A stretch of 35,145 nt of DNA from Opitutaceae bacterium (GCA_005799525.1 SYGN01000060.1:1-35145), one strand, 5' to 3'. Counted from the first letter of the stretch, positions 20,482 to 34,808 are shown. The notes: generated by a model not told the origin, from the letters alone. Made by a program: numbers and translations.

Positions 20482-21744
20482 ATGCCCGCCCCGATTCTCA
20501 TCGACCTCACCCACACGAGCCACACCCGCGCGCGCACCGGCATCCAACGCGTCGCGCGCTCCCTCCACACCGCTCTCGGCTCCGACGCCCGCGCCATCAC
20601 TTACGACCCCCACGCCCGTACTTGGCGCCCCCTTGAGCCGTGGGAAACGGACAGTCTCACCGCCGCCCCCTCCTCCGAAAAACGCGGCACGACTTGGCCT
20701 CTCTCCGCCCAACTTCGCGGCCTCGCCCACCGCCTCCTCAGCTCCTCCGACTCTCCGTCTCTTAACGCTCAAAGCTCAACGCTCCGCTCATCGTTCGGCC
20801 TCCTCGTCCCCGAGGTCTTCTCCGCCAGCACCGCCGCCGTCCTTCCCGCGCTGCTCAACGCCGTCGCCGGCCCGCGTGTCGCGATTTTCCACGACGCAAT
20901 CGCCCTCAAATTTCCCGAGCTCACTCCGACAAAAACCGTCGCCCGCTTTCCCTCCTATCTTCGCGAGCTCCTCGCCTTCGACGGCATCGCTGCCGTCTCC
21001 GAAGATTCCCGCGACTCTCTCCGCGACTACTGGCGCTGGCTCGGCATCGCCCATCCGCCCCCCGTCCAAGCCATCCCCCTCGGCACCGAACCGGTTTGTC
21101 ACGTATTAAGTGACAAACTTCCCGCGCCCGCCGCCAGCGGTCCCCCTTTCGTTTCCGTTGCCGACGCTCAGCGCTCAGCGCTCAGCGCTCAGCCCATTCC
21201 GACTATCCTCAGCGTCGGCTCCCTCGAAGGCCGCAAGAACCACCTCGCCCTCCTCGACGCCTGCGAACAACTTTGGTCCGCCGGCACGCGTTTCGAACTC
21301 CGCCTCGTCGGCCTCGCCCATCCGCAGACCGGTCGGGCCGCCCTCGCCCGCTTGCGAGCTCTCCAGGCCGCCGGACGCCCGCTCCGCTACGACGGACCCG
21401 CGACCGATACCGCGCTCGATTCCGCCTACGCCTCCTGTGCCTTTACGATTTACCCTTCACTGATCGAAGGCTTCGGCCTGCCCGTCATCGAAAGTCTCGC
21501 ACACGGCAAACCCTGCATCTGCTCCGCCCGCGGCGCCCTCGGCGAATCCGCCCGCGACGGTGGCTGCGTCGCGCTGGCCTCCGTCGACGTCGCGCACTTG
21601 GCTGCCGCCGTCCGCCGACTGCTCGACACCCCGACTGAAGTTGCCGCGCTTGCCCACGCCGCCCGCACCCGGAAACTCCGCTCGTGGTCCGACTACGCCG
21701 CGACCCTCACCGCGTGGATGCAGATGCTGAAACGACGCAGCTAA
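20482..21744 (+). CDS. GT4-family glycosyltransferase
   Basis: ILIDLTHTSHTRARTGIQRVARSLH...VAIFHDAIALKFPE...TILSVGSLEGRKNHLALLDAC...YPSLIEGFGLPVIESLAHGKPCICS. Contains heptanucleotide repeats in frame. Confidence 0.9.
   Translation: MPAPILIDLTHTSHTRARTGIQRVARSLHTALGSDARAITYDPHARTWRPLEPWETDSLTAAPSSEKRGTTWPLSAQLRGLAHRLLSSSDSPSLNAQSSTLRSSFGLLVPEVFSASTAAVLPALLNAVAGPRVAIFHDAIALKFPELTPTKTVARFPSYLRELLAFDGIAAVSEDSRDSLRDYWRWLGIAHPPPVQAIPLGTEPVCHVLSDKLPAPAASGPPFVSVADAQRSALSAQPIPTILSVGSLEGRKNHLALLDACEQLWSAGTRFELRLVGLAHPQTGRAALARLRALQAAGRPLRYDGPATDTALDSAYASCAFTIYPSLIEGFGLPVIESLAHGKPCICSARGALGESARDGGCVALASVDVAHLAAAVRRLLDTPTEVAALAHAARTRKLRSWSDYAATLTAWMQMLKRRS
20765..20785 (+). repeat. Degenerate heptanucleotide repeat, 3 units (ACGCTCA AAGCTCA ACGCTCC), inside the GT4 gene
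   Basis: Read directly: ttaACGCTCAAAGCTCAACGCTCCgctca. Confidence 0.8.
21164..21191 (+). repeat. Heptanucleotide tandem repeat, 4 units (ACGCTCA + 3x GCGCTCA), inside the GT4 gene
   Basis: Read directly: ccgACGCTCAGCGCTCAGCGCTCAGCGCTCAgccc. Confidence 0.9.
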
Positions 21745-21838
21745 AGCAGAAATCCGCCGGCGTCTCGCTCTCGTCCCACCGGAACAAACCGCCTTTCCGT
21801 TTGCCAACGCGCAAACGCAAACCCACCTTCCCTCCCAC

Positions 21839-23035
21839 ATGGCGCTCTCCTTCTTTACCAAAAACAAAAAGGCAATGCTAGCCCGCTGTCGCGATGATTA
21901 CGCGACCAAGATGCGGTTGAAATACGCCCCCTACTACCACGCCATGGAGGCCCAGAAGGGCACCACCGTAAAACTTGATGGCCGCGAGATGATTATGCTC
22001 TCGAGCAATGATTATCTCGGGTTGTCGTTTAACCCCAAAGTAATCGAAGCCGGCCGTGCGGCACTCCTCAAATGGGGCACGAGTACGACCGGTGCCCGCA
22101 TCTCCAACGGTTCCCGCACGTTCCACCTCGAGCTGGAGGAAAAACTCGCGAATTTCCTCGGCCGCGAGGCCTGTCATGTCAGTACCGCCGGCTACATCTC
22201 CTGCCTCTCAAGCATCGCCTCCTTCGCCCAAAAGGGCGACGTCATCCTCGCCGATAAAAACATTCACTCGTGTCTCTGGGACGGCATCCGTCTCTCAATG
22301 GCGACCGTCGAGCGCTTTTCCCACAACAGTCCCGAAGACCTCCGCGACGTGCTCGCCGCCACCAACCGCGACGCGACCAAAATGTTGGTCATCGAAGGCG
22401 TTTATTCCATGGAGGGCCACATCGCCCGCCTCCCCGAGATTTCCGAAATCGCCGACGAACACGGCTGCTTCACGGTCCTCGACGATGCGCATGGCTTCGG
22501 CGTCCTCGGCCGCCACGGCCGCGGCACCGTCGATCATTTCGGCCTCAACGATAAAGTGGACGTCATCTGCGGCAGCATGTCGAAGTCCCTCGCCAGCACC
22601 GGCGGCTTCGTCGCCGCCTCGCGCGAAGTGATCGAATATCTCCGCACCAATTCGAAACAGACCGTCTTCTCCGCCGCCATTAGCCCCACCCAGGTCGCTT
22701 GTGCGCAAGCCTCACTCGAGCTGATGCAGACCGAGCCCCACCACCTCGAAAAACTCTGGTCGAATACGAAAAAATACCGCGCGATGCTCAAGTCCTTGGG
22801 CCTCGACACCTGGGAAAGTGAAACTCCCGCCGTGCCCATCGTGCTCGGCTCCAAGGAGCGCGTTTACCCGTTCTGGAGGGCGCTGCTCGAAAAAGGCGTC
22901 TTCACCGTCATGTCGATCGCGCCCGCCGTCCCCGCCGGTAAGGACCTCATCCGCACCGCCATCTCGGCGCTGCATACGGACGAGCAGCTCGAAAAAATCG
23001 CCGATGCCATGGCGTATGCGGTGAAAAAACTGTAA
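21839..23035 (+). CDS. Alpha-oxoamine synthase family PLP enzyme, serine palmitoyltransferase-like
   Basis: IMLSSNDYLGLSFNPKVIEAG...GARISNGSRTFHLELEEKLANFLGREA...VLDDAHGFGVLGRHGRGT...CGSMSKSLASTGGFVAA (PLP-Lys with SKS). Family certain, substrate not. Confidence 0.9.
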   Translation: MALSFFTKNKKAMLARCRDDYATKMRLKYAPYYHAMEAQKGTTVKLDGREMIMLSSNDYLGLSFNPKVIEAGRAALLKWGTSTTGARISNGSRTFHLELEEKLANFLGREACHVSTAGYISCLSSIASFAQKGDVILADKNIHSCLWDGIRLSMATVERFSHNSPEDLRDVLAATNRDATKMLVIEGVYSMEGHIARLPEISEIADEHGCFTVLDDAHGFGVLGRHGRGTVDHFGLNDKVDVICGSMSKSLASTGGFVAASREVIEYLRTNSKQTVFSAAISPTQVACAQASLELMQTEPHHLEKLWSNTKKYRAMLKSLGLDTWESETPAVPIVLGSKERVYPFWRALLEKGVFTVMSIAPAVPAGKDLIRTAISALHTDEQLEKIADAMAYAVKKL

Positions 23036-23135
23036 GCCGCAGAAATTCAGTCGAAAGCCACGTGCCGAGAGCGGAGAGCAAAACCAGACGGTGACGCTCG
23101 CTTACCGGCGTGACGGCGCGCAGCTCCGTTTTTGG

Positions 23136-23159
23136 GCTCTCAACTCTCAGCTCTCAACT
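23136..23159 (+). repeat. Heptanucleotide repeat, 3 units (GCTCTCA ACTCTCA GCTCTCA) plus partial ACT, intergenic
   Basis: Read directly: gggCTCTCAACTCTCAGCTCTCAACTgcgg. Confidence 0.8.
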
Positions 23160-23212
23160 GCGGCTCGGAAACGGCTGGCCCAGATAGTTCACACCCCACT
23201 TGACCCCATGCA

Positions 23213-23278
23213 TTTCACAGAGCGGACAAGGTGTTTGGCTCCGTCAGCTCGGTTCGGACCTCTGTGCGCTCTGTGAAA
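23213..23278. repeat. 12-bp perfect inverted repeat TTTCACAGAGCG / CGCTCTGTGAAA between convergent genes
   Basis: Arms 23213-23224 and 23267-23278, exact reverse complements. Confidence 0.85.
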
Positions 23279-23323
23279 AAAAGATTTTCTTCAGAAAAGT
23301 GTGATTGCTGCGGGCTAGGCCTT

Positions 23324-24343
23324 TCAGGTTTTCAACCCGCCGCGCAGCGTCTCGGCCGCCTCAGCCCACGTGGGCAAAGCCCGCGACGTGGCCTCTGCGG
23401 CCAGCATCGCGTGCAGCGTATTTTCCGTCAGCACCCGCCGAAGCGCCGCCTTCCATTTGGCCCGATCATTCAGCGCCACGGGCAGGCAACCGCCGCCCGC
23501 CGTATTTTCCCGCAACACCGGTAAGTCGCTGCACACACAGGGCACCCCCATCCACAGAGATTCCAGCACCGGCAGTCCACATCCCTCCGCGAGCGTCGGC
23601 ACCACACTGGCCCGCGCCGTCGCGTAGAGAGCCGTGACGGCGGCATCACTCGCCGCTTCGTGATAATGCAGCCCACCGTTTTTTCGACTGAGCGCTTTAA
23701 TCCGACGCAAAATCGGCGCTCCAAAATGCGGATTCACACGCCCCACGAGATGAAGTTCAAACTCCAGTCCTTCGCCCCACAACTCCTCACTCACATCCAG
23801 CAAAAACATCTGGTTCTTGCGTGGCTCGAGAATCCCCACGCTCAACAGACTCGGTCTCGCCGGCGTCGCGCGTAGCGTTAACCGCGGCGCCGAATTAAAA
23901 TCGGCCCCCAGCGCGAGCACCTCCACCGGCGGAGTCTTGGCAAGCCCCTGCCAGCGCCAGAATCCCAGCAACTCCTCTCGGCTCGCCGCCGACACCGCCC
24001 AGACGAGGTCAAACTGCGCGAGTAGCTTCAGGTAGCCCGGATGGCGCGCCACACTCTGCGGCCAAGTAATGTGCGGGTGCGTCAACGGAATCGCGTCATG
24101 AAAAATCGCCGCCGTCCGTCCTTCGCGTTTCTCCAAAAAGGCCGTAAACCCCGGCCGTTCTTCCTCTGAAAACAACTCTCCGGTGAAAAACCAATCGTCC
24201 GCCCGCAACGTCGCGCGATCCCAGGTCGGCCAACGCACCTCCGTCGCCACGCCCCGCAGACCATCGGCCAAGCGTGCACTCACCCGCATCAATCCTGAGC
24301 GATGGCCCGCCCCTCCGGCCTTCGTGACATCGAAATGGATCAT
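23324..24343 (-). CDS. GT4-family glycosyltransferase (paralog of 20482-21744)
   Basis: MIHFDVTKAGGAGHRSGLMRVSARLA...AIFHDAIPLTHPHITWPQSVARHPGYL...SLLSVGILEPRKNQMFLLDV...VPTLAEGCGLPVLESLWMGVPCVCS. ATG overlaps the upstream gene's stop. Confidence 0.88.
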   Translation of the reverse strand: MIHFDVTKAGGAGHRSGLMRVSARLADGLRGVATEVRWPTWDRATLRADDWFFTGELFSEEERPGFTAFLEKREGRTAAIFHDAIPLTHPHITWPQSVARHPGYLKLLAQFDLVWAVSAASREELLGFWRWQGLAKTPPVEVLALGADFNSAPRLTLRATPARPSLLSVGILEPRKNQMFLLDVSEELWGEGLEFELHLVGRVNPHFGAPILRRIKALSRKNGGLHYHEAASDAAVTALYATARASVVPTLAEGCGLPVLESLWMGVPCVCSDLPVLRENTAGGGCLPVALNDRAKWKAALRRVLTENTLHAMLAAEATSRALPTWAEAAETLRGGLKT

Positions 24344-25551
24344 CGCCCAATCGACCGCTTGAACAACGCGAGCACTCGCTCGGCATTGCCGTGCGCGTTG
24401 AAGTTTTCCTCCACCCATACCCGCGCCGCTCGCCGCAGTTTCTCGGCAAACACATCGTCCCTCGACAACCGGCGCAACGCACTCACCCACACCTCCGTCG
24501 ACTCCACCGGCACGACAAGTCCCGTCACTCCTTGCGTCACGGCCTCGGTCGTCGCAGCCACCGGTGAGGTGATGACGAGCACGCCGACCGACATCGCCTC
24601 GGGAATCACATTCGGCAAACCATCACGGTCCCCGCTGGGCGCAATCACCCCCGTGTGCAACAGAACATCCGCCCATGCGAGTTGGCTCCACACTTCATGA
24701 TGCGGCAAATGTCCGGTAAACGTCAGATTCGCCGCGATCCCGAGGTGGCCCGCGAGTTTCTCCAGCTCCGGCAGCAACGGTCCCTCCCCCACGATCCGCG
24801 CTTCAAAGGCCACCCCCGCAGCACGCAGCGCGGCATAGACGCGCAGTTGATGATCGAGACCTTTCTTCTCCACCAATCGCGCCACGCACACCAGCTGCAA
24901 CGGCTCACGCGATGCTCGCAGCGGCTTTAACGCCGGCAGTCGATCAAGACCGCGGCGTATGCAAAAAATCTTCTCCGCCGCCAGCCCGCGCGCCACCAGC
25001 GCCTTGCGCCCCATCTCCGTTGACGTGTGGACGAAGGCGGCATGCGCCAACTTATCATTCAGCCACCAGTCGCCGCCGTGCTCATAAATATCGTAGGCGT
25101 GTGCCGCCGCACTGAAGTGATGCTGGTCGAGCCGCCACAGCAGCCAAGCCGCCGTCGCGGGCGCACCACCCCACGCAGCGTGGATGAGCGCCGGTCGGTT
25201 AGCCCTGAAATGCCGGGCAAAAATACAGGCGAAACCAGCCCCAAGCATATTCTCCCAAAAGTTAATCCACGACGGCGCCCGGCGCGCGGAGAGTCCGGCC
25301 AAGACTTGCCGCAAGACCCCTGGCCGGCGCCACGACTCATAGGGAATCATCCAAAAAAGGGTCAACAGTCGCCACTTGTTGAAGGTCGCAACCGGCAGTC
25401 CCCGAAACATACCCCCACCTCCCCAGAGCGAATAGAGCCGCAGATTCACCCCATGCGCACGCATCGCGATGATTTCTCGCTGGAGAAAAGTCTCCGTGGG
25501 CTTCGGGAACGTCGTAAAAAGATAGGCGATGACAGGCGCTTCGGTCGACAA
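24340..25551 (-). CDS. GT4-family glycosyltransferase (colanic-acid/exopolysaccharide WcaL/AmsK-like)
   Basis: VIAYLFTTFPKPTETFLQREIIAMRAHG...HVHTSTEMGRKAL-like region, LVCVARLVEKKGLDHQLRVYAAL...IAPSGDRDGLPNVIPEAMSVGVLVITSPVAATTEAV. TTG start. Confidence 0.88.
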   Translation of the reverse strand: MSTEAPVIAYLFTTFPKPTETFLQREIIAMRAHGVNLRLYSLWGGGGMFRGLPVATFNKWRLLTLFWMIPYESWRRPGVLRQVLAGLSARRAPSWINFWENMLGAGFACIFARHFRANRPALIHAAWGGAPATAAWLLWRLDQHHFSAAAHAYDIYEHGGDWWLNDKLAHAAFVHTSTEMGRKALVARGLAAEKIFCIRRGLDRLPALKPLRASREPLQLVCVARLVEKKGLDHQLRVYAALRAAGVAFEARIVGEGPLLPELEKLAGHLGIAANLTFTGHLPHHEVWSQLAWADVLLHTGVIAPSGDRDGLPNVIPEAMSVGVLVITSPVAATTEAVTQGVTGLVVPVESTEVWVSALRRLSRDDVFAEKLRRAARVWVEENFNAHGNAERVLALFKRSIGR

Positions 25552-25621
25552 AGTAGCAAGAAGCTAGAGCGCCACCCGCGCCGTGGCCAAGCGCATTACG
25601 TTCCGCCGCAGAATCGCAGCC

Positions 25622-26860
25622 CTACGCCTTTCCGCTCGGCGCGGACGGTGCACTGCTGCCGTTCGACGGCGGAAAAGCCCAGCGTTTCAGCTTCGCTCCG
25701 ACGACTTCGTTGGCCATTCCCACGAGCTCCTCGATCAGCAGCGTCGGATCCTCCACGTAACGCAGTTTCAGAAAATTCTCCCGCACCGCCGCGTAGGCCG
25801 CCGGCGTCGCCATCCACCGATCAATGAGCCGGGTAAAGTCCACCGCATCCTCAACTTTCTCCGAAGCGGCGCCATTGCGGAAAAATTTCCACGTCAGCTC
25901 CTCCTGCGGCATGATCCCACCAAACGCATTGAAGATAATCGGACACTGAAAATGCAGGGCCTTCGCGCAGGTCGTCGTGCCACCGCGCGTCACAATCACA
26001 TCGCTCGCTTGCATGAATAAATGGACAATCTCCGAGTAGCCCTCGATGTGGCAGCCAAACTCGGGGTGCGTAGCACGCCAGTGCACGAGGTCGTTGTAGG
26101 TCTCCTTATTCTTGCCGCAAATCACGATCGCCTGCACGCGTTCGGCGTGCTTCATCAGCCCTTGCAGGAGGTCGAAGTGATTGTTCGCTCCATTGCTCCC
26201 CGTCGCGAGAAAGACCGTGAACTTGTCGGGATTGAGTCCGAGTTTTTTGGCCTGAAACACCCGCCGGTCCGCCGGGGTCAGCACCTCCAAGTGCGAGCGC
26301 GGCAACATCAGATAACCGCGCACGCGCGATTTTTCCGGCGCGATCCCTTGCTTGACCGCGTAGTCCGCCGCCGTCGGCGTACGCGAAAAATACCGGTCGA
26401 CCGTCGGCTCGATCCAGTTGCGCGAGTAGCCCCAGCCACCGGAAAATTCCCCGCAGTAGGTCGCGCAGCGCACGCGGTTGGCACCGAGCGTAGCCCGCGC
26501 GAGTTGAAAATAGCCGCGGTTGAGACAGTCGTGCACGCTGAACACGAGGTGAGGTTGGTAGTCCTGCAAGACCTTTAAATAATAGCTGGAACCAAACGTG
26601 ACGTCGCCCCGATTGAGCCAACTCAGCAGCTCGACGAAGGCGTAAAACCCACGGTGCATCCAAGGGGCCAACCGCTGGATGCGATTGTAAAGACCCACGC
26701 CCGCGCGGTTCACCACAGACGATTTCTCCAGCATCTGCTCGATGCGCACGTCGACGTCGTGCCGGTAAAGTTGAAAACACCACTCGGCAAACGCCTCCGC
26801 CCGCGCATCGTGACCACCACCGGTGCTGGCTGTGAGAACAAGAATACGGAGCTTGGACAT
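25622..26860 (-). CDS. MGDG-synthase/UgtP-like GT28 glycosyltransferase
   Basis: MSKLRILVLTASTGGGHDARAEAFAEWCFQLY (N-terminal GGGH motif) and C-terminal VTRGGTTTCAKALHFQCPIIFNAFGGIMPQEE. Confidence 0.85.
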   Translation of the reverse strand: MSKLRILVLTASTGGGHDARAEAFAEWCFQLYRHDVDVRIEQMLEKSSVVNRAGVGLYNRIQRLAPWMHRGFYAFVELLSWLNRGDVTFGSSYYLKVLQDYQPHLVFSVHDCLNRGYFQLARATLGANRVRCATYCGEFSGGWGYSRNWIEPTVDRYFSRTPTAADYAVKQGIAPEKSRVRGYLMLPRSHLEVLTPADRRVFQAKKLGLNPDKFTVFLATGSNGANNHFDLLQGLMKHAERVQAIVICGKNKETYNDLVHWRATHPEFGCHIEGYSEIVHLFMQASDVIVTRGGTTTCAKALHFQCPIIFNAFGGIMPQEELTWKFFRNGAASEKVEDAVDFTRLIDRWMATPAAYAAVRENFLKLRYVEDPTLLIEELVGMANEVVGAKLKRWAFPPSNGSSAPSAPSGKA

Positions 26861-26864
26861 GCGG

Positions 26865-27707
26865 TCAGGAAATCTTGAAATAAGTCGCTTGAATCCGGCG
26901 CTTGAGCGCCAGCGAACCAAAGCGAGAAATCAAGGGCGCGATCACCGCTTGGAAAAACCGTCCGATACGCACCGTGCCGCTGCGATTCCGCAACAGCGCG
27001 CGCCGTAGCTCCCCCGCAGCCTGCGCGGGCGCCGGCCCCGACTCCATCATCGCCACAAACGCCGTCCACGCCCGCGCCAACCGCGGACTCTGCGCCGACG
27101 CCGACTGCGGTCGGCGGACCGAGCCTTCGAAATCCGTTCGATAGTCGCCGGGACGCACATCGAGTATGACGACCTTCGCGCCGGAAACCTCCATCATGAG
27201 ACTTTCGTTGAGCGCGGAGAGCCCCGCCTTCGTGATATTGTAGGCCGACTGAAAGGGCAGCGGAAACTCCGCCGCCAGCGACGAGATGTTGACCAGCGCG
27301 CCCCGGTTCCGCTCCAACATCCCTCCCAGCGCAGCGTGCGCGAGTCGCGCCGTGTTGATGAGCATCACCTGCAGCTGCTCCGCCCACACCGTAAAGTCGG
27401 TCGCCGCAAATTCTGCGAATACTCCGTAGCCGGCATTGTTGATCACAAGGTCGAAACCTCCCGCACTCCGGTCGGCCGCACGAAACCTCGCTTCGGCCTG
27501 CGGACCGTCCCGCAGATCCAGAATAACCGGCGTGAACCGCTCCCCATGCTGAGTAACAAGCGCGTCGAGACGGGCGCCGTCGCGCGCCGTGCCCCAGACG
27601 CGGACCCCCTCGGCGAGCAGCATTTCCGCAAAGGCCCGGCCGAGGCCCGTGCTCGCACCCGTAATGAAGGCCGTGCGGTGCAGATCGGAAACGCGTGCGG
27701 CAGCCAC
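26865..27707 (-). CDS. Classical short-chain dehydrogenase/reductase with C-terminal extension
   Basis: RTAFITGASTGLGRAFAEMLLAEG, LVINNAGYG, VNISSLAAEFPLPFQSAYNITKAG (Ser-Tyr-Lys catalytic set). GTG start at 27707, 4 nt after the upstream gene's stop. Confidence 0.88.
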   Translation of the reverse strand: MAAARVSDLHRTAFITGASTGLGRAFAEMLLAEGVRVWGTARDGARLDALVTQHGERFTPVILDLRDGPQAEARFRAADRSAGGFDLVINNAGYGVFAEFAATDFTVWAEQLQVMLINTARLAHAALGGMLERNRGALVNISSLAAEFPLPFQSAYNITKAGLSALNESLMMEVSGAKVVILDVRPGDYRTDFEGSVRRPQSASAQSPRLARAWTAFVAMMESGPAPAQAAGELRRALLRNRSGTVRIGRFFQAVIAPLISRFGSLALKRRIQATYFKIS

Positions 27708-27711
27708 GGTG

Positions 27712-28974
27712 TTAGGCCACCCGCTTGAAGACCAGGGCGACGTTGGCACCGCCGAATCCGCTGCTGTTCTTAACGACAATCTTGGGCGGCGTGTTCTCCG
27801 TCGTGCGCAGAATATTGATACCTGCGCATTCGGGATCCAGCTTGGTGAGGTGCGCGTTGCCCGGTATAAATCCCTCCCGGATCGCCAGTGCGCAGAACGC
27901 GCTCTCCATCACCCCTGCGAGTGAAAGCCCGTGCCCGGTTAGCGCCTTCGTGCTGCTCACCGCAGGACGCAGCGCGGAATCCTGAAACACGGACCGCAGG
28001 GCGCGCGCTTCGGAAATGTCACCAATGAGCGTCGAGGTGGCGTGGGCGTTGACATAGTCCACCTGCTCCGGGGCGACCCCGCTGGCGCGGAGCGCGAGCG
28101 TCATCGCAGCAGCCGAGCCACTGCCTTCGGGATGCGAGATGGCGACGTTCCAACCATCTGACGCTTGGCCCCAACCCAACACTTCCGCGTAAGGTGTCAC
28201 GCCGCGACGCACGACCTCTGCCTCCGTTTCCAACACGAGCGCCACACCGCCGCCGGTGCCGACGAACCCGTCCCGCGCCGCGTCGAACGGCCGCGACGCG
28301 AGATTCGGGTCGGTCTGCAGCGACAGCGTGCGCATGCCGGCAAACGGCAGAATGGCATCGAGGTTACCATCTTCAGCCCCCACGACGAACATGCGCTTTT
28401 GTCGGCCGAGCTGAAGGTCATCCAACGCGAACCCAAACGCGTGCGCGGAGGACGCACAGGCGGACGAAAAACCACACGAGGAGCCTTGAATTTTGAAGGC
28501 CGCGATCAAATTGAAATTCAGCGTGCCCGCGATTGAAGCCACGATCCCCAACGGCGAACACCGCATCACCCCGACTTTGTTGAGTCGGTCGTTGTGGTAA
28601 TGCAGCAGGTAAGGCGATCCGCCTGACGCGGCGTAGAGGCCCGTGTGTGCATTGGAAATATCGGGCTCGGTTAGCCTGGCGTCGGCCACCGCCTGCAGCA
28701 TCGCGCACTGCGCAAAGAGCCCGTTCGGTGCCATCGTGCGCAAGAGCTCCCGCTTGATTTTGTAGCCAGCCGGAAACGTCCAGTCTTCCGGATCGGGGGA
28801 ATTCGTGGCGAAATCCTTGATCGTGCCAATCACCTTAACCGGAATCTCTGGCTTCTGGAACGGGGGAAAAACTTCAAAACCGTGGCGCAGTTCGCGGAGA
28901 TTGCGCGTCACGGTCGCGGCGTCGTTGCCGATGCTCGTGACAAATCCTAGGCCGGTGATAAAAACTCTGGGCAT
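27712..28974 (-). CDS. Beta-ketoacyl-ACP synthase (FabF/KAS-II type)
   Basis: MPRVFITGLGFVTSIGNDA...SACASSAHAFGFALDDL (Cys), YVNAHATSTLIGD (His), SSTKALTGHGLSLAG (His), SGFGGANVALVF. Cys-His-His triad intact. Confidence 0.92.
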   Translation of the reverse strand: MPRVFITGLGFVTSIGNDAATVTRNLRELRHGFEVFPPFQKPEIPVKVIGTIKDFATNSPDPEDWTFPAGYKIKRELLRTMAPNGLFAQCAMLQAVADARLTEPDISNAHTGLYAASGGSPYLLHYHNDRLNKVGVMRCSPLGIVASIAGTLNFNLIAAFKIQGSSCGFSSACASSAHAFGFALDDLQLGRQKRMFVVGAEDGNLDAILPFAGMRTLSLQTDPNLASRPFDAARDGFVGTGGGVALVLETEAEVVRRGVTPYAEVLGWGQASDGWNVAISHPEGSGSAAAMTLALRASGVAPEQVDYVNAHATSTLIGDISEARALRSVFQDSALRPAVSSTKALTGHGLSLAGVMESAFCALAIREGFIPGNAHLTKLDPECAGINILRTTENTPPKIVVKNSSGFGGANVALVFKRVA

Positions 28975-29167
28975 GCGTGCGTGGTGTGGCGGCGGCGCAC
29001 ATCCCGCCAAAGGGGAATGCACCGGACCGGGATACGAAATGAAAGGTGTTCGTGCGCGCCGGTCAACGCGGGAGCAGGCACCACAACACAAAAACAGCGA
29101 CCATCATGGTCGCCGGGGAATTTTGCCGAGCCCCACCTCGCGCGCGTTGGGCGGCGCGACGGTGGCG

Positions 29168-30166
29168 TCAGCCGGTCGCGTTCATCGCTACGCGCAACGG
29201 GGGCACCCCCGTTGCTGGCGCCACTGCGGCGCCGCCCTGATTCCCCGCATGCTCGGAAGAACCATTGATCGAAACGGGCGCATTGGCCGCGTCCACGATC
29301 AAAAAAGTGAGGGTGATTTCCTCGGCGATAACCGCCTTTTCCTGGCCGACCCGAATCGCGCCTTCAAACGTGGCCAGCGGCATTTTCATGCGCTTCGGCT
29401 TGATCGAAAGCGAAAGGATTTCGCCTGGTTTGCAGATGCGATGGGCGCGCACGCCTTCACAGCCGGTAAAAAAAATTGACTGCGGGCTCACGACCTTGCC
29501 GGGTTCGGTGGGCGCGCCTTCCAGCAAATAAAGCACCGCCAGTTGCCCCAACGCCTCCAGCATGATGGAGGCAGGCATCACGGGATTGTCCTTGAAGTGA
29601 CCCTGAAGAAAAAATTCCTGGCCGGTGATCTTATATTTGCCGTTGGCCGCCGTCGAACTCACCGACGCTTCGTTTAAGAAAAGAAAGGGCGGCTGCACCG
29701 GCATGACGGCACCGATGTGCTCAATCGGGATGAACTTCGTCGGCTTGGGCAGCACCAGTCCGCGGATCTTGCAGTCAATAAATGTCTTCACATCGCCCAC
29801 CGTGCGCAGATTGCGGAGCTCATCGTTATTGATCGTCATCTGGAGCACGTCCTCCACCAAAATAACGATTTCCATCATCGTAAGTGAGTCGATGCCGAGG
29901 TCCTCGATCAGTCGCAGATCATCGTCTGCATCCTTCAACTTGATGCGCAAATCCGGCTCGACAAAGCGCTCGATCACACCGATAACAACCGCCGGAACAT
30001 GCTCGGCATTACCAGTCTTGCGAAACTGCACCGCAGATTCAAAAGCCGAGGGAGAACAACGCTTCAACGCCTCGCGGAGCGCGGTTTCGTCCTCTGGAGA
30101 AAAGGGCTTGTTCGTCGACGGAGTCGGCTTGTTGGTGCCCTGATTTGGTAGGACTGGGTCTAGCAT
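29168..30166 (-). CDS. Fusion of acyl carrier protein and FabZ-like hot-dog dehydratase
   Basis: ACP: LRLIEDLGIDSLTMMEIVILVED (DSL serine). Dehydratase: QEFFLQGHFKDNPVMPASIMLEALGQLAVLYLLEG (His...Glu retained). Start at cat 30164-30166. Confidence 0.85.
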   Translation of the reverse strand: MLDPVLPNQGTNKPTPSTNKPFSPEDETALREALKRCSPSAFESAVQFRKTGNAEHVPAVVIGVIERFVEPDLRIKLKDADDDLRLIEDLGIDSLTMMEIVILVEDVLQMTINNDELRNLRTVGDVKTFIDCKIRGLVLPKPTKFIPIEHIGAVMPVQPPFLFLNEASVSSTAANGKYKITGQEFFLQGHFKDNPVMPASIMLEALGQLAVLYLLEGAPTEPGKVVSPQSIFFTGCEGVRAHRICKPGEILSLSIKPKRMKMPLATFEGAIRVGQEKAVIAEEITLTFLIVDAANAPVSINGSSEHAGNQGGAAVAPATGVPPLRVAMNATG

Positions 30167-30175
30167 TATTCGTGT

Positions 30176-30205
30176 TTTATATGTTACGGGACGCCGCGAT
30201 GTAAA
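30176..30205 (-). promoter_or_regulatory. Candidate sigma70-type promoter: -35 TTTACA, 18-nt spacer, -10 TATAAA
   Basis: Minus-strand reading TTTACAtcgcggcgtcccgtaacaTATAAAacacgaataATG. Confidence 0.5.
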
Positions 30206-30391
30206 TCCATTTCTTGGCCGCAATTTCCCAGAAACATCTGCGGCGGCGGCCACCGCTTCCGCGTCTGCATCGAAAATACGCCCGCCCAAGCCCATCGCTG
30301 CGCTTGCCAGAACCCCGCCACCGCCCCATCCCTCTGCCGTTATTCCAGCATACGTTGACTCACGCCTGCTGACCGCACTCAACACCAGCGC

Positions 30392-31558
30392 ATGTCCGCA
30401 ATTTCAACGGCTCCCAACGCCCGGCCGGTTTTTCTGATTACGCACGAGTTTTATCCGGTGCGGGGCGGTATCGCGACCTTCACCGAAGAAATTGCCCGCG
30501 CCAGCGCGAGTCTCGGCTACAACATCGAAGTCTGGGCCCAATCCGCTCCGACCGCCGTCGAACGTCCCGACTGGCCCTTCCGCCTTCGCCGCCTTCCGCT
30601 CAAGGGCACGCACGATATCTGGTGCCAAGCCCAACTCGCGCGCGAACTGATCCGCCACCGCCGCGAACTCCGCCGCGCCACCGTCTATTTGCCTGAACCC
30701 GGGCCGATGATGACGATGATGCTCCTGCAATTTTTCCACGCCTTCCGCCCGCGACGCCTCGTGCTCACGTTTCACGGCTCGGAAATCCTCAAGTTCACCC
30801 GCAGCCCCTTGCGTCGCTGGCTCGCCGGACAACTCATCCGCCGGGCCACTCGCATCAGCACACTCACCCATTACACGCAGGAACTGCTCGTCGCTCATTT
30901 CCCCGCGGCCGCCGAAAAGATTTTCCTCACTCCCGGCGCACTCCGCTCCGACTTCGCCGTCGGCCCGCCCAAACCCGCGAGCCCCCGGAAAAAAATCGTC
31001 ATACTCACCGTCGGCCGCCTCCACCCGCGCAAAGGCCAACTCCTCACCTTGCAGGCGTTGCAAACCCTCGCACCCGACGTTCGCTCGCGCCTCGAATACT
31101 GGGTCGTCGGCGGCCAGAGCAAGGGTAACTACGAGACCCAACTCCGCGTCGCCGCCGCCGAAAAACCCGATCTCGCCGTCCGCTTCTTAGGCAACATTCC
31201 CGACGAGGAACTCTCCGATCTTTACGACCGCGCCGACATCTTCGCTATGACGAGCGTCAACCTCGAACACAGTGTCGAGGGCTTCGGCCTCGTTTACCTC
31301 GAAGCTGCCGCCCACGGCTTGCCGGTCGTGGCTCACGACGTCGGCGGTGTTTCCGAGGCCGTCAGGGAAGGCGTCACCGGCCTCCTCGTCCCAACCCATC
31401 GCCCCGCCCAACTGGCCGCGGCTTTCGAAAAACTCATCCACGACGAGCCATTGCGCCGCAAGCTGGGTGCCGCCGGTCGCGATTGGGCGACGCGCAACTG
31501 CTGGAAAGAATCGGCCGCGGCCCTCTTCACTTCGTTCGACGCCGAGACCGAACCATGA
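30392..31558 (+). CDS. GT4-family glycosyltransferase (PimB-like)
   Basis: VFLITHEFYPVRGGIATFTEEIARASASLGYNIEVWAQ...ILTVGRLHPRKGQLLTLQAL...VEGFGLVYLEAAAHGLPVVAHDVGGVSEAVREGVTGLLV. Confidence 0.92.
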   Translation: MSAISTAPNARPVFLITHEFYPVRGGIATFTEEIARASASLGYNIEVWAQSAPTAVERPDWPFRLRRLPLKGTHDIWCQAQLARELIRHRRELRRATVYLPEPGPMMTMMLLQFFHAFRPRRLVLTFHGSEILKFTRSPLRRWLAGQLIRRATRISTLTHYTQELLVAHFPAAAEKIFLTPGALRSDFAVGPPKPASPRKKIVILTVGRLHPRKGQLLTLQALQTLAPDVRSRLEYWVVGGQSKGNYETQLRVAAAEKPDLAVRFLGNIPDEELSDLYDRADIFAMTSVNLEHSVEGFGLVYLEAAAHGLPVVAHDVGGVSEAVREGVTGLLVPTHRPAQLAAAFEKLIHDEPLRRKLGAAGRDWATRNCWKESAAALFTSFDAETEP

Positions 31559-31956
31559 TCTCCGTGCGCGCCCAGATCACCGTCCGCTACGCCGAAACCG
31601 ACATGATGGGCATCGTCTATCACGCGAATTATCTTCCGTGGTTTGAAGTCGCCCGCACCCAGCTCCTCCGCGAGCAGGGCTTCCCCTACCGTCAGCTCGA
31701 GACCGCTGGCTATCGCCTTCCCGTCCTCGAAGTCGCCGCCAAATATCGTCGTCCCGCGCTCTACGACGACACCCTCACGATCGTCGCCACCATTCGCGAA
31801 AAGCCGCTCTTGCGCATCTGGATCGATTACGAGGTTTTCCGCGGCGACGAACTTTTGGCCACCGGCCAGAGCGCCCATGCGTTCTGTGATCTCACGGGTC
31901 GGCCCACCCGGCCACCCGCAGCGTTCGTCGCACGGATGAACGCACTCTTTACATAA
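31555..31956 (+). CDS. YbgC/FadM-like 4HBT thioesterase
   Basis: MISVRAQITVRYAETDMMGIVYHANYLPWFEVARTQLLREQGFPYRQLE: D-x-MGIVYHANYL active-site region. ATGA overlap with upstream GT4. Confidence 0.92.
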   Translation: MISVRAQITVRYAETDMMGIVYHANYLPWFEVARTQLLREQGFPYRQLETAGYRLPVLEVAAKYRRPALYDDTLTIVATIREKPLLRIWIDYEVFRGDELLATGQSAHAFCDLTGRPTRPPAAFVARMNALFT

Positions 31957-33145
31957 CGAGTCCGGCCTCTGCCGCATATTCCGCGAGCACCGTCGCGTCC
32001 GTCTCCGTCGCCTCCGCTCCCGCGAGCAGGGCCCGGCCACCGAGGCGATACACCGCCCACACCGCATGCGCGCGCACCAACGCCAAATCATGGGCGCATG
32101 CCAACTCGACCAATGGCGGCAACAACGCGGTATCACCCGAATTCCCCGCCACCACGCAGGCGTTGCGCAACAGCCCGCCCAGCTTCACCCGCTTGATCGC
32201 CGTCCGCCGAAACACCTCCGCGAACCGCACCGGCGTCAGCCCCAAGATTTCCCGCAACTCCAGTTCCGCAATGTCACCCCGCACCGACAGCAGCATCTTC
32301 CGCCCTTCCTGCGCAAAGCGGTTCCACGGACACACCTCGAGACAGACATCACAGCCATAGATTCGTTGTCCGATCCCCGCCCGCAGTTCACGCGGAATAA
32401 CCCCCTTGTTCTCAATCGTCTGGTACGACACGCACCGGCGCGCATCCACCACACCCGGTTTCACAAAGGCGTCCGTCGGGCACGCGTCGAGACACCGCGT
32501 GCATTTTCCACACAACAGCCCGACCTCACCCGCCTGCTTCGTGTCGAGATTCTCCACTTTTTTCCGAATCGGTTCATCCGCCACGAACGCCACCTTGGTC
32601 AGAATCGCCGCCAGCAACAGCCAGTTCCCGTGTCGCCGGGAAATGAGCATCGCATTCTTACCGACAAATCCGATTCCCGCCCGCGCCGCCCACCCGCGCT
32701 CCAGCACCGGCCCCGTATCGACATAGTAACGATAGTCCCTTTCGCCGATTCCATAAAGCTCCTGCATGATTCGCCCGGCCGCGATGAACCCCGGCTTCAC
32801 CGTGTCGTGGTAATCCTCGTTCAACGCATAGCGCGCCCACGTCGGCCGCCCCGCCCTCTCGCCCACGCTCACGCCTTGCGTGGGAGAAGCCACGCCCCCG
32901 TCGCGTTGACCACCCTCCGCATAACTGATCCCCAGCATGATCGCCGAGCACGCGCCCGGCAGCACGAGCTGCGGATCGATCCGTTTGTCCGCCGTGCGCT
33001 CCATCCAGCCCATCTCCCCGTGCAGGCCCGCGTCCAGCCAGGCCCGCAAGCCATCGTCGTGTCCGCTCGCCAAGGTCGCGAACCGCACTTCGTCGAAACC
33101 CACTTCGCCCAACCGCCGCCGCAACTCCTCCTGCCGCGTATCCAT
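31949..33145 (-). CDS. queG: Epoxyqueuosine reductase
   Basis: LLCGKCTRCLDACPTDAFVKPGVVDARRCVSYQTIENKGVIPRELRAGIGQRIYGCDVCLEVCPWNRFA: two 4Fe-4S motifs plus the QueG signature. Start MDTRQEEL. Confidence 0.95.
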   Translation of the reverse strand: MDTRQEELRRRLGEVGFDEVRFATLASGHDDGLRAWLDAGLHGEMGWMERTADKRIDPQLVLPGACSAIMLGISYAEGGQRDGGVASPTQGVSVGERAGRPTWARYALNEDYHDTVKPGFIAAGRIMQELYGIGERDYRYYVDTGPVLERGWAARAGIGFVGKNAMLISRRHGNWLLLAAILTKVAFVADEPIRKKVENLDTKQAGEVGLLCGKCTRCLDACPTDAFVKPGVVDARRCVSYQTIENKGVIPRELRAGIGQRIYGCDVCLEVCPWNRFAQEGRKMLLSVRGDIAELELREILGLTPVRFAEVFRRTAIKRVKLGGLLRNACVVAGNSGDTALLPPLVELACAHDLALVRAHAVWAVYRLGGRALLAGAEATETDATVLAEYAAEAGLVM

Positions 33146-33699
33146 CAGCGTTGACCTCGCGCCCGCAGAAAATCCACCGCGTCGCGCCTCCACGCCCGCA
33201 TCACGTGACCCGCAATATCCATCAGCGGTCGCGAATCCGTGAGGATCACCGTACCGGACTGCCGGTAGATCGACTCACGCTGCGCGAACAGCGTGCGGAT
33301 GCGCTCCTCGGGATTTTCCGCCACCAGCAGCGGTCGGTTATGCTGCCGTGAGGTCCGCGCGAGAATCGTCTCCACCGACGCATGCAGACACACCACCACA
33401 CCTTGGCTCTGCAACGTCCCGAGCATCCCGGGTTGCACCACAAGCCCTCCGCCGCACGACACCACCGTTCGCTCCCCCGTATGCCCGCCCTCGATAAACG
33501 CCCGCTCCATCGCACGAAACGCCGCTTCCCCCTCCTGCGCGAAGATCTCCGGAATGGTTTTTTTCTGCTGCCGCTCGATCTCGTGATCGCTGTCGACCAT
33601 GTGAAAGCCGAGCTTGTGAGCCACGGCCCGGCCCACGGCGCTCTTGCCCGTGCCCATGAACCCAACGATGTAGAGATTGACGTCCGTTGCGTTCATCAC
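33145..33699 (-). CDS. aroK: Shikimate kinase
   Basis: LYIVGFMGTGKSAVGRAVAHKLGFHMVDSDHEIE...FRAMERAFIEG...VVSCGGGLVV...RPLL. Confidence 0.93.
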   Translation of the reverse strand: MMNATDVNLYIVGFMGTGKSAVGRAVAHKLGFHMVDSDHEIERQQKKTIPEIFAQEGEAAFRAMERAFIEGGHTGERTVVSCGGGLVVQPGMLGTLQSQGVVVCLHASVETILARTSRQHNRPLLVAENPEERIRTLFAQRESIYRQSGTVILTDSRPLMDIAGHVMRAWRRDAVDFLRARGQR

Positions 33700-33752
33700 G
33701 TGACCTCAGACGAAACGCACCGCCCGCCGCCTTGCCAAACACCAAAATCCCT

Positions 33753-34808
33753 ATGACAGGCCCACGCCCCAATTTTACCTTCGCGAGCGATAACACCGCC
33801 GGTATTTGCCCCGCGGCGCTCGCCGCCCTCACGGCCGCCAACTCCGACTGCGTCCCCAGCTATGGCGACGATCATCACACCGCCCGCACAAAAAGACTCT
33901 TCGCCGAACTCTTCGAGACCGACTGCGACGTCTTTCTCGTCTTCAACGGCACCGCCGCCAACGCCCTCGCGCTCTCCTCGATCTGTCAGCGCCATCACAG
34001 CATTTTATGTCACGCCCACGCCCACATCGAAACCGACGAGTGCGCTGCGCCAGAATTTTTCACCGGCGGCAGCAAACTCCTCCCGGTCGACTCGCCGGAC
34101 GCCAAGCTGCGCGCCGCCGATCTCGCGCCCGCACTCCAGCGGGGGCACGGCGTCCATTTCCCAAAACCGCGCGCGCTCTCGCTGACCCAATCGACCGAAC
34201 TCGGGACCATCTATACGCCCGCCGAACTTCACGCTTTGACCGACTGGGCGCACGCCCACGATCTCGCGGTTCACCTCGACGGCGCTCGTTTCTCGAACGC
34301 TGCCGCCGCCCTCCACAAGCGCGGCGATCACTCACCGGCCGATCTCACGTGGCGGGTCGGCATCGATGTGTTGTGTTTCGGCGGCACAAAAAACGGCCTC
34401 CTCACCACTGAAGCCATCGTGTTTTTCAACCGCGATCTCGCCCGCGAGTTTGCCTACCGCGTGAAACAAACCGGCCAGCTCGCGTCGAAAATGCGTTTCG
34501 CCGCCGCCCAATGGGACGCCATCCTCAGCGACGGTGCGTGGCGGCGTCACGCCGCCCACGCCAACCACCAAGCTCAGAAACTCTCCGCCGCCCTCACTGC
34601 GCTCGGTTGCCAACTCGTTACCCCCACAGAAGCGAACGGCGTCTTCGTCGAATTCGCCCCCGCCACCGTCGCCGCGCTTGAGGCCCGCGGCTGGCATTTC
34701 TACAAATTCGCCGGCCCACACGGCTACCGCCTCATGTGCTCGTGGGAAACAGCCGACGCGGACATCGCGGCCTTTCTGACGGACGCCCGCGCCGCCCTCG
34801 GAAAATAA
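33753..34808 (+). CDS. ltaE: Low-specificity L-threonine aldolase / beta-eliminating lyase family
   Basis: NFTFASDNTAGICPAALAAL...YGDDHHTARTKRLFAELFETDCDVFLVFNGTAANALAL...HLDGARFSNAAAAL...DVLCFGGTKNGLL. Confidence 0.9.
   Translation: MTGPRPNFTFASDNTAGICPAALAALTAANSDCVPSYGDDHHTARTKRLFAELFETDCDVFLVFNGTAANALALSSICQRHHSILCHAHAHIETDECAAPEFFTGGSKLLPVDSPDAKLRAADLAPALQRGHGVHFPKPRALSLTQSTELGTIYTPAELHALTDWAHAHDLAVHLDGARFSNAAAALHKRGDHSPADLTWRVGIDVLCFGGTKNGLLTTEAIVFFNRDLAREFAYRVKQTGQLASKMRFAAAQWDAILSDGAWRRHAAHANHQAQKLSAALTALGCQLVTPTEANGVFVEFAPATVAALEARGWHFYKFAGPHGYRLMCSWETADADIAAFLTDARAALGK

Follow-up and report, generated by a model that had tools for sequence, protein, structure and literature searches.

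The locus at positions 20482 to 31956 of a 35,145-nucleotide stretch of DNA from an Opitutaceae bacterium (GCA_005799525.1 SYGN01000060.1:1-35145; the whole stretch is called the window below) probably makes a glycosylated amino lipid of the long-chain-base (sphingolipid) type from a dedicated pool of acyl-ACP. Its gene arrangement is far above chance, and the gene set is conserved within a single order of Verrucomicrobiota; a few families elsewhere in the class carry it too. Judged by its sequence, the locus resembles the opening steps of sphingolipid synthesis in bacteria, and it encodes a candidate SPT rather than an established SPT or ceramide pathway. SPT-based bacterial lipids are already known, and the product of the locus would be a further variation on them. 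A published description of the locus, or of sphingolipids or amino lipids of Opitutaceae, was not found in the open-access PMC literature.

In the proposed pathway a beta-ketoacyl-ACP synthase (KAS), an ACP-dehydratase fusion and an SDR would form a dedicated type II module that makes or completes an acyl chain carried by its own ACP domain. An alpha-oxoamine synthase (AOS) would condense that acyl-ACP with an amino acid and release CO2, yielding a 2-amino-3-ketone (a 3-ketosphinganine analogue); either the SDR or an enzyme encoded elsewhere would then reduce the ketone. The first sugar would be added by the GT28 glycosyltransferase and extended by GT4c and the other GT4s. The handover of the acyl-ACP to the AOS and the order of the steps are those that we infer. 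Proteobacterial SPTs favour a dedicated acyl-ACP (PMC11324152), and in SgaAB a chain-building PKS is coupled to an AOS to give sphinganines (PMC12134224).

All ten open reading frames of the 11.5-kb stretch were located at the positions given in a preliminary description of this DNA, and the families named there were confirmed using Pfam and NCBIfam. The six-gene minus-strand series that it reported (ACP-dehydratase, KAS, SDR, GT28, GT4c, GT4b) was present, but the near-zero spacing was not found at the ACP-dehydratase/KAS junction, where the gap is about 190 nt. Starts are uncertain for several genes (KAS most likely at 28974, GT28 near 26860, the 4HBT thioesterase at 31558 or 31483). The source genome is a 4.7 Mb draft, 84% complete, and its near relatives are Opitutaceae MAGs. 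Upstream of the locus (1 to 20473) lies an envelope-glycan island with a nucleotidyltransferase, two GT2s, an epimerase, an LPG-synthase-TM protein, a GT4, a TonB receptor and a methyltransferase; its large proteins orf15, mem509 and mem545 belong to one paralogous family across the relatives. On the other side (31949 to 34808) the locus is flanked by QueG-like, shikimate kinase-like and threonine-aldolase-like genes, their names being read from the sequence; the first two adjoin the 4HBT gene in many relatives.

The alpha-oxoamine synthase

Alpha-oxoamine synthases of the SPT type condense an amino acid with an acyl thioester. The plus-strand gene at 21839 to 23035 encodes a PLP enzyme with an Aminotran_1_2 domain, for which the closest solved structure was the SPT of Sphingobacterium multivorum (3a2b/8guh, E 5e-96). 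The catalytic Asn, the stacking His, the Asp-His, the PLP Lys and the carboxylate Arg were all retained in the alignment. In a tree of 49 rows, 24 of which make up the locus AOS clade, this clade was supported at 100/100 and was joined with the Bacteroidota and proteobacterial SPTs and with the AOSs of ceramide-type clusters at 93/94. BioF, Kbl, HemA and the rhizobial RkpG all fell outside this group. The enzyme could be read as a housekeeping BioF or Kbl standing beside the operon by accident, given a fold common to all AOS families and a score of 332 bits with the BioF model, but the chance of this is negligible: the tree excludes such an identity, L194 and L196, Kbl-like relatives in the same family, grouped with E. 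coli Kbl and not with the locus AOS, the gene has no biotin or threonine gene neighbours, and its synteny is conserved. The preliminary description had called the enzyme SPT-like, and its position in the tree agrees with this.

Against the curated SPT models the AOS scored below every cut-off (NF047600, 389 of 640 bits; NF047599, 352 of 500; NF047603, 287 of 670). Controls from Bacteroides, Sphingomonas, Roseomonas and Klebsiella exceeded the cut-offs, and the AOS of the Rubrobacter ceramide-type cluster was likewise below them. The locus AOS clade is divergent (stem length 1.02), and this long stem may leave room for an activity other than that of SPT.

Residue Lys281 of SulA is a published marker of cysteate enzymes (PMC9304779). 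The window AOS and all 42 scored clade members have Ala at this position; cysteate is therefore not an expected substrate, and a cysteate or sulfonolipid synthase was excluded. Most clade members also have Ala in the G-x-R motif where SPTs have Ser, and after the stacking His they read HS[CS]LW versus HAS(I/L) elsewhere (HSCLW for HASIxD). Because of these clade-specific changes, the amino acid used may be one other than serine.

Chain module and glycosyltransferases

The KAS (27712 to 28974, minus strand; N- and C-terminal ketoacyl-synt domains) is FabB/FabF-like, with model scores of 304 and 302 bits. Its triad C173/H311/H348 and K343 were invariant among 12 aligned sequences. Since the genome carries three other KAS genes, 31-35% identical to that of the locus (four in total), the locus KAS is taken as a dedicated paralogue, and a role as the sole housekeeping KAS was excluded. 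The presence of these other genes, the nearest at 35% identity, supports the dedicated acyl-ACP pool that had been proposed for the locus. The ACP-dehydratase (29168 to 30166, minus strand) is an ACP with a DSL motif (PP-binding, 2e-6) fused to a FabZ-like hotdog dehydratase (FabA/Z, 4e-14), and in 15 aligned sequences D93-S94-L95 of the ACP and the FabZ-type H190/E204 were invariant. The active sites of the type II fatty acid module (KAS, ACP and dehydratase) are intact.

The classical SDR (26865 to 27779, minus strand; adh_short, 4e-35) has the S-Y-K residues and FabG-like PDB matches. It scored 93 bits with the KdsR model (cut-off 400) and similarly with FabG-type models; its scores were in fact alike across many SDR families, FabG and 3-ketodihydrosphingosine reductase among them. 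SDRs can reduce the ketone of an AOS product. The SDR may instead act within the chain module as its ketoacyl-ACP reductase, because it lies beside the KAS, fits FabG-type models at least as well as KdsR and is missing in some loci; it adjoins the KAS in other orders too. With the KAS, SDR and dehydratase together, the cycle would run as far as a trans-2-enoyl chain. The Pfam scan detected no enoyl reductase among the locus genes, so a housekeeping enzyme would be used or the chain would be left unsaturated.

Since an enoyl reductase is absent from the locus, a more specific pathway can be drawn, in which the chain module would end at the dehydratase step and trans-2-enoyl-ACP would pass to the AOS to give a 4-trans-unsaturated base, with the dehydratase replacing a desaturase and glycosylation following directly without N-acylation by bCerS. 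This version is a long shot. Still less probable is a polyene or aryl-polyene-like glycolipid made by the KAS, dehydratase and ketoreductase, with the AOS incidental or chain-releasing. The presence of KAS, ACP, dehydratase, SDR, thioesterase and glycosyltransferase genes and the absence of an enoyl reductase from the locus fit such a product, but the single KAS is of the FabB/FabF type, the locus genes include no chain-length-factor partner, aromatic starter enzyme or AMP-ligase, and the co-occurrence with the AOS would be left unexplained.

In the glycosylated long-chain base that we favour, the likely lipid glycosyltransferase is GT28 (25622 to 26920, minus strand), which matched MGDG_synth (1e-5) and Glyco_tran_28_C (4e-7) in Pfam and the processive DAG glucosyltransferase and MGD1 in the PDB, and stayed under the PRK13609 cut-off (85 of 500 bits). 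GT28 enzymes of the MGDG/UgtP type glycosylate lipids; the acceptor here would by analogy be the long-chain base. The EpsE/WcaL-like GT4c (24340 to 25551, minus strand; family models) was the glycosyltransferase most often retained beside the AOS, distant families included. GT4b (23324 to 24490, minus strand; Pfam GT4 and synteny) is the final gene of the minus-strand series, and its paralogue GT4a (20482 to 21744, plus strand; Glycos_transf_1, 1e-18) precedes the AOS in most loci of the family. GT4d (30392 to 31558, plus strand; Pfam), divergent from the ACP-dehydratase, was retained beside that gene outside the order as well, and the YbgC/FadM-type 4HBT thioesterase (31483 to 31956, plus strand; TIGR00051 above cut-off) was retained adjoining GT4d. 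GT4a and the 4HBT gene are tied to the AOS less tightly than GT4c, GT28, KAS and ACP-dehydratase.

The sugar genes also bear on another reading, in which the acyl chain and the AOS would build the anchor of a surface polysaccharide and the GT4s begin a long glycan. The rhizobial rkp-1 region (FAS/PKS-like protein, AOS, SDR and capsule genes) has reportedly been proposed to make such a lipid anchor, and on pSymB of Sinorhizobium an SDR-containing large protein, an AOS, an SDR and capsule genes stand in a row. The four GT4s and the upstream nucleotidyltransferase, GT2 and epimerase genes of the window would suit this role. An anchor is nevertheless unlikely: RkpG falls in a different AOS branch of the tree, the MGDG/UgtP-like lipid glycosyltransferase is better conserved next to the KAS than any other sugar enzyme, and in the part of the window that was scanned neither a capsule polymerase nor an exporter was identified, several membrane proteins lying outside that scan.

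Distribution within and beyond the order

The AOS was present in 44 of 57 relatives and, at a threshold of E <= 1e-90, in 127 of 234 genomes of Opitutales. The ACP-dehydratase was found in 121 of these 127 (odds ratio 66, Fisher p 9e-33, without correction for relatedness). The two genes were at most 15 kb apart in 53 of the 121 genomes, from eight families, the genomes being related and the counts thus non-independent. Two random genes of a 4-Mb genome lie within 15 kb in less than 1% of cases, and the chance expectation was under one or about one genome. Around the AOS, many genera of Opitutaceae retain the divergent series GT4b-GT4c-GT28-SDR-KAS-ACP-dehydratase, with GT4d and 4HBT after it. 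Reduced loci occurred in other families, consisting of AOS-GT4c-KAS-ACP-dehydratase (L064), the same with GT28 (L057), AOS-GT4c-ACP-dehydratase (L063) or the latter with GT4b (L059). In an independent start from the ACP-dehydratase, 51 loci extending beyond 9 kb on the operon side were collected, some of which end near the place expected for the AOS; KAS was present in 50, GT28 in 50, GT4c and GT4b in 38, SDR in 34 and AOS in 28.

A phylum-wide sample of 289 genomes was searched with the ACP-dehydratase profile and the AOS. Each was found in 34 genomes, 31 of the AOSs being close orthologues, and 30 of the 31 genomes with a close orthologue also held the ACP-dehydratase. Outside the order the ACP-dehydratase was present in G262, G325 and G475, the same three genomes in which the AOS has a close orthologue (53-59% identity). 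G475 and G325 carry the AOS, GT4c, GT28, SDR, KAS, ACP-dehydratase and GT4d within about 14-17 kb, rearranged and at 33-59% identity; in G262 the AOS part and the ACP-dehydratase part are 70 kb apart. Nothing else argues as strongly for a joint function of these genes as this recurrence beyond the order. Synteny of the AOS with the minus-strand operon, which the preliminary description had left to be searched for, is thus conserved both in the order (53 of 121 genomes within 15 kb) and in two families outside it.

In 25 of 146 genomes the ACP, dehydratase and KAS were also found, usually as unfused genes, where no close AOS is present; the chain module would accordingly be older or more general than its pairing with the AOS and can serve another role. 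In L152 and L154, from families without a close AOS, the ACP and dehydratase are separate adjacent genes together with a KAS, and the ACP has a characteristic N-terminal extension (KRCSPET...) that is seen in the fusion too. L150 and L151 hold paralogous KAS-ACP pairs (KAS 55-56% identical) without a dehydratase fusion, adjoining a HisC-like or acyltransferase-like gene.

The occurrence of the module without a close AOS in some families would fit two pathways within one envelope island: the KAS, ACP-dehydratase, SDR and GT28 would make a glycolipid, such as a glycosylated fatty-acyl or diacylglycerol lipid, while a long-chain base or ceramide would arise separately through the AOS. The island is full of other glycan genes, and many genomes of the order show no linkage between the AOS and the operon, the two lying far apart even in several single-contig ones (G067, G070, G165 and G193). 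Such a division is improbable, though the most credible of the alternatives, in that the co-occurrence is almost one-sided (121 of 127), the pair stays together beyond the order at 33-59% identity, and the ceramide synthase of a separate ceramide route is missing in 119 of the 127 AOS genomes.

Ceramide genes and known systems

Ceramide-type reference clusters were taken from Klebsiella, Rahnella, Rubrobacter and Aureispira records, and their GNAT protein was labelled bCerS from gene order and mutual similarity. Using profile A2, full-length bCerS relatives were found in 9 of 234 genomes, eight of them among the 127 AOS genomes; this GNAT-type N-acyltransferase was thus not found in the other 119, nor in the 84% complete source draft. 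In a one-query search it was absent from 14 of 16 genomes. The locus holds no N-acyltransferase, and neither a CerR-type epimerase-fold reductase nor an AasR acyl-ACP synthetase is among its ten genes. A standard ceramide pathway is unsupported, bCerS being missing from most AOS genomes. Ceramide-type loci of two relatives (G165, G017) are separate from the locus and each have their own AOS; together with the rarity of bCerS in AOS genomes, this makes the locus AOS independent of bCerS.

The first of these (L192, G165:C1:3921000-3933000) is a second sphingolipid-type locus with a 1324-aa PKS-AOS fusion, a bCerS-like GNAT and an SDR, and with CDP-alcohol phosphotransferase-like and PAP2-like proteins, both assigned by eye. 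The second (L193, G017:C13:54000-65000) has a further SPT of proteobacterial type, which passes NF047599, beside an AMP-ligase-like gene; the locus AOS is also present in that genome. LpxC was found in 16 of 16 genomes tested, including the source genome. A glycosphingolipid replacing LPS as in Sphingomonas is therefore unsupported, and the locus lipid would be no simple LPS replacement.

Of the interpretation in the preliminary description, the SPT-like AOS, the synteny and the dedicated pool were upheld: the two genomic results that it had named as refuting, an AOS clustering with BioF/Kbl and a lack of conserved synteny with the minus-strand operon, were not obtained. Its proposals for the target of the SDR and the acceptor of the glycan are carried forward as predictions, as is an amino acid substrate. 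If the proposed pathway is correct, a widespread order of Verrucomicrobiota has its own class of glycosylated sphingoid-type lipids, and fatty-acid building, amino-acid condensation and glycosylation are united in a single locus. It could then account for Spt-like proteins in Verrucomicrobiota genomes, which were described in 22 Black Sea MAGs (PMC11334938). It would also caution against taking an Spt-like gene as the mark of a ceramide producer, given that most carriers lack bCerS. The locus supplies named genes that can be tested in cultured Opitutaceae.

Among known systems, the processive diacylglycerol glycosyltransferases of the MGDG synthase/UgtP type (GT28) have domains in common with the locus GT28, which is below the PRK13609 cut-off. 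Rhizobial rkp-1 is similar in having a FAS/PKS-like protein, an AOS and an SDR beside polysaccharide genes (L185 of Sinorhizobium pSymB, whose genes we take to be rkpA-rkpG-rkpH); its chain builder, however, is one large type I protein, and RkpG belongs to another AOS branch than the locus AOS. The SulA/capnine pathway (PMC9304779) shares the AOS fold, the acyl-ACP donor and the catalytic residues, but SulA has Lys281 where the locus AOS has Ala. SgaAB of Pseudomonas fluorescens MYb115 (PMC12134224) likewise joins a chain-building synthase to an AOS for long-chain bases; SgaA is one iterative type I PKS, whereas the locus has a type II module with a fused ACP-dehydratase, plus lipid glycosyltransferases. 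The Caulobacter ceramide pathway (aasR, cerR, acpR, spt, cerS; PMC11324152) resembles the locus in its SPT-type AOS with a dedicated ACP and in its envelope lipid context. It differs in that the acyl-ACP of the locus would come from the KAS/dehydratase module and not from an acyl-ACP synthetase, in that bCerS is missing in 119 of 127 AOS genomes and AasR and CerR are absent among the locus genes, and in that the locus has GT28 and the GT4s where the Caulobacter type has phosphosphingolipid head-group genes.
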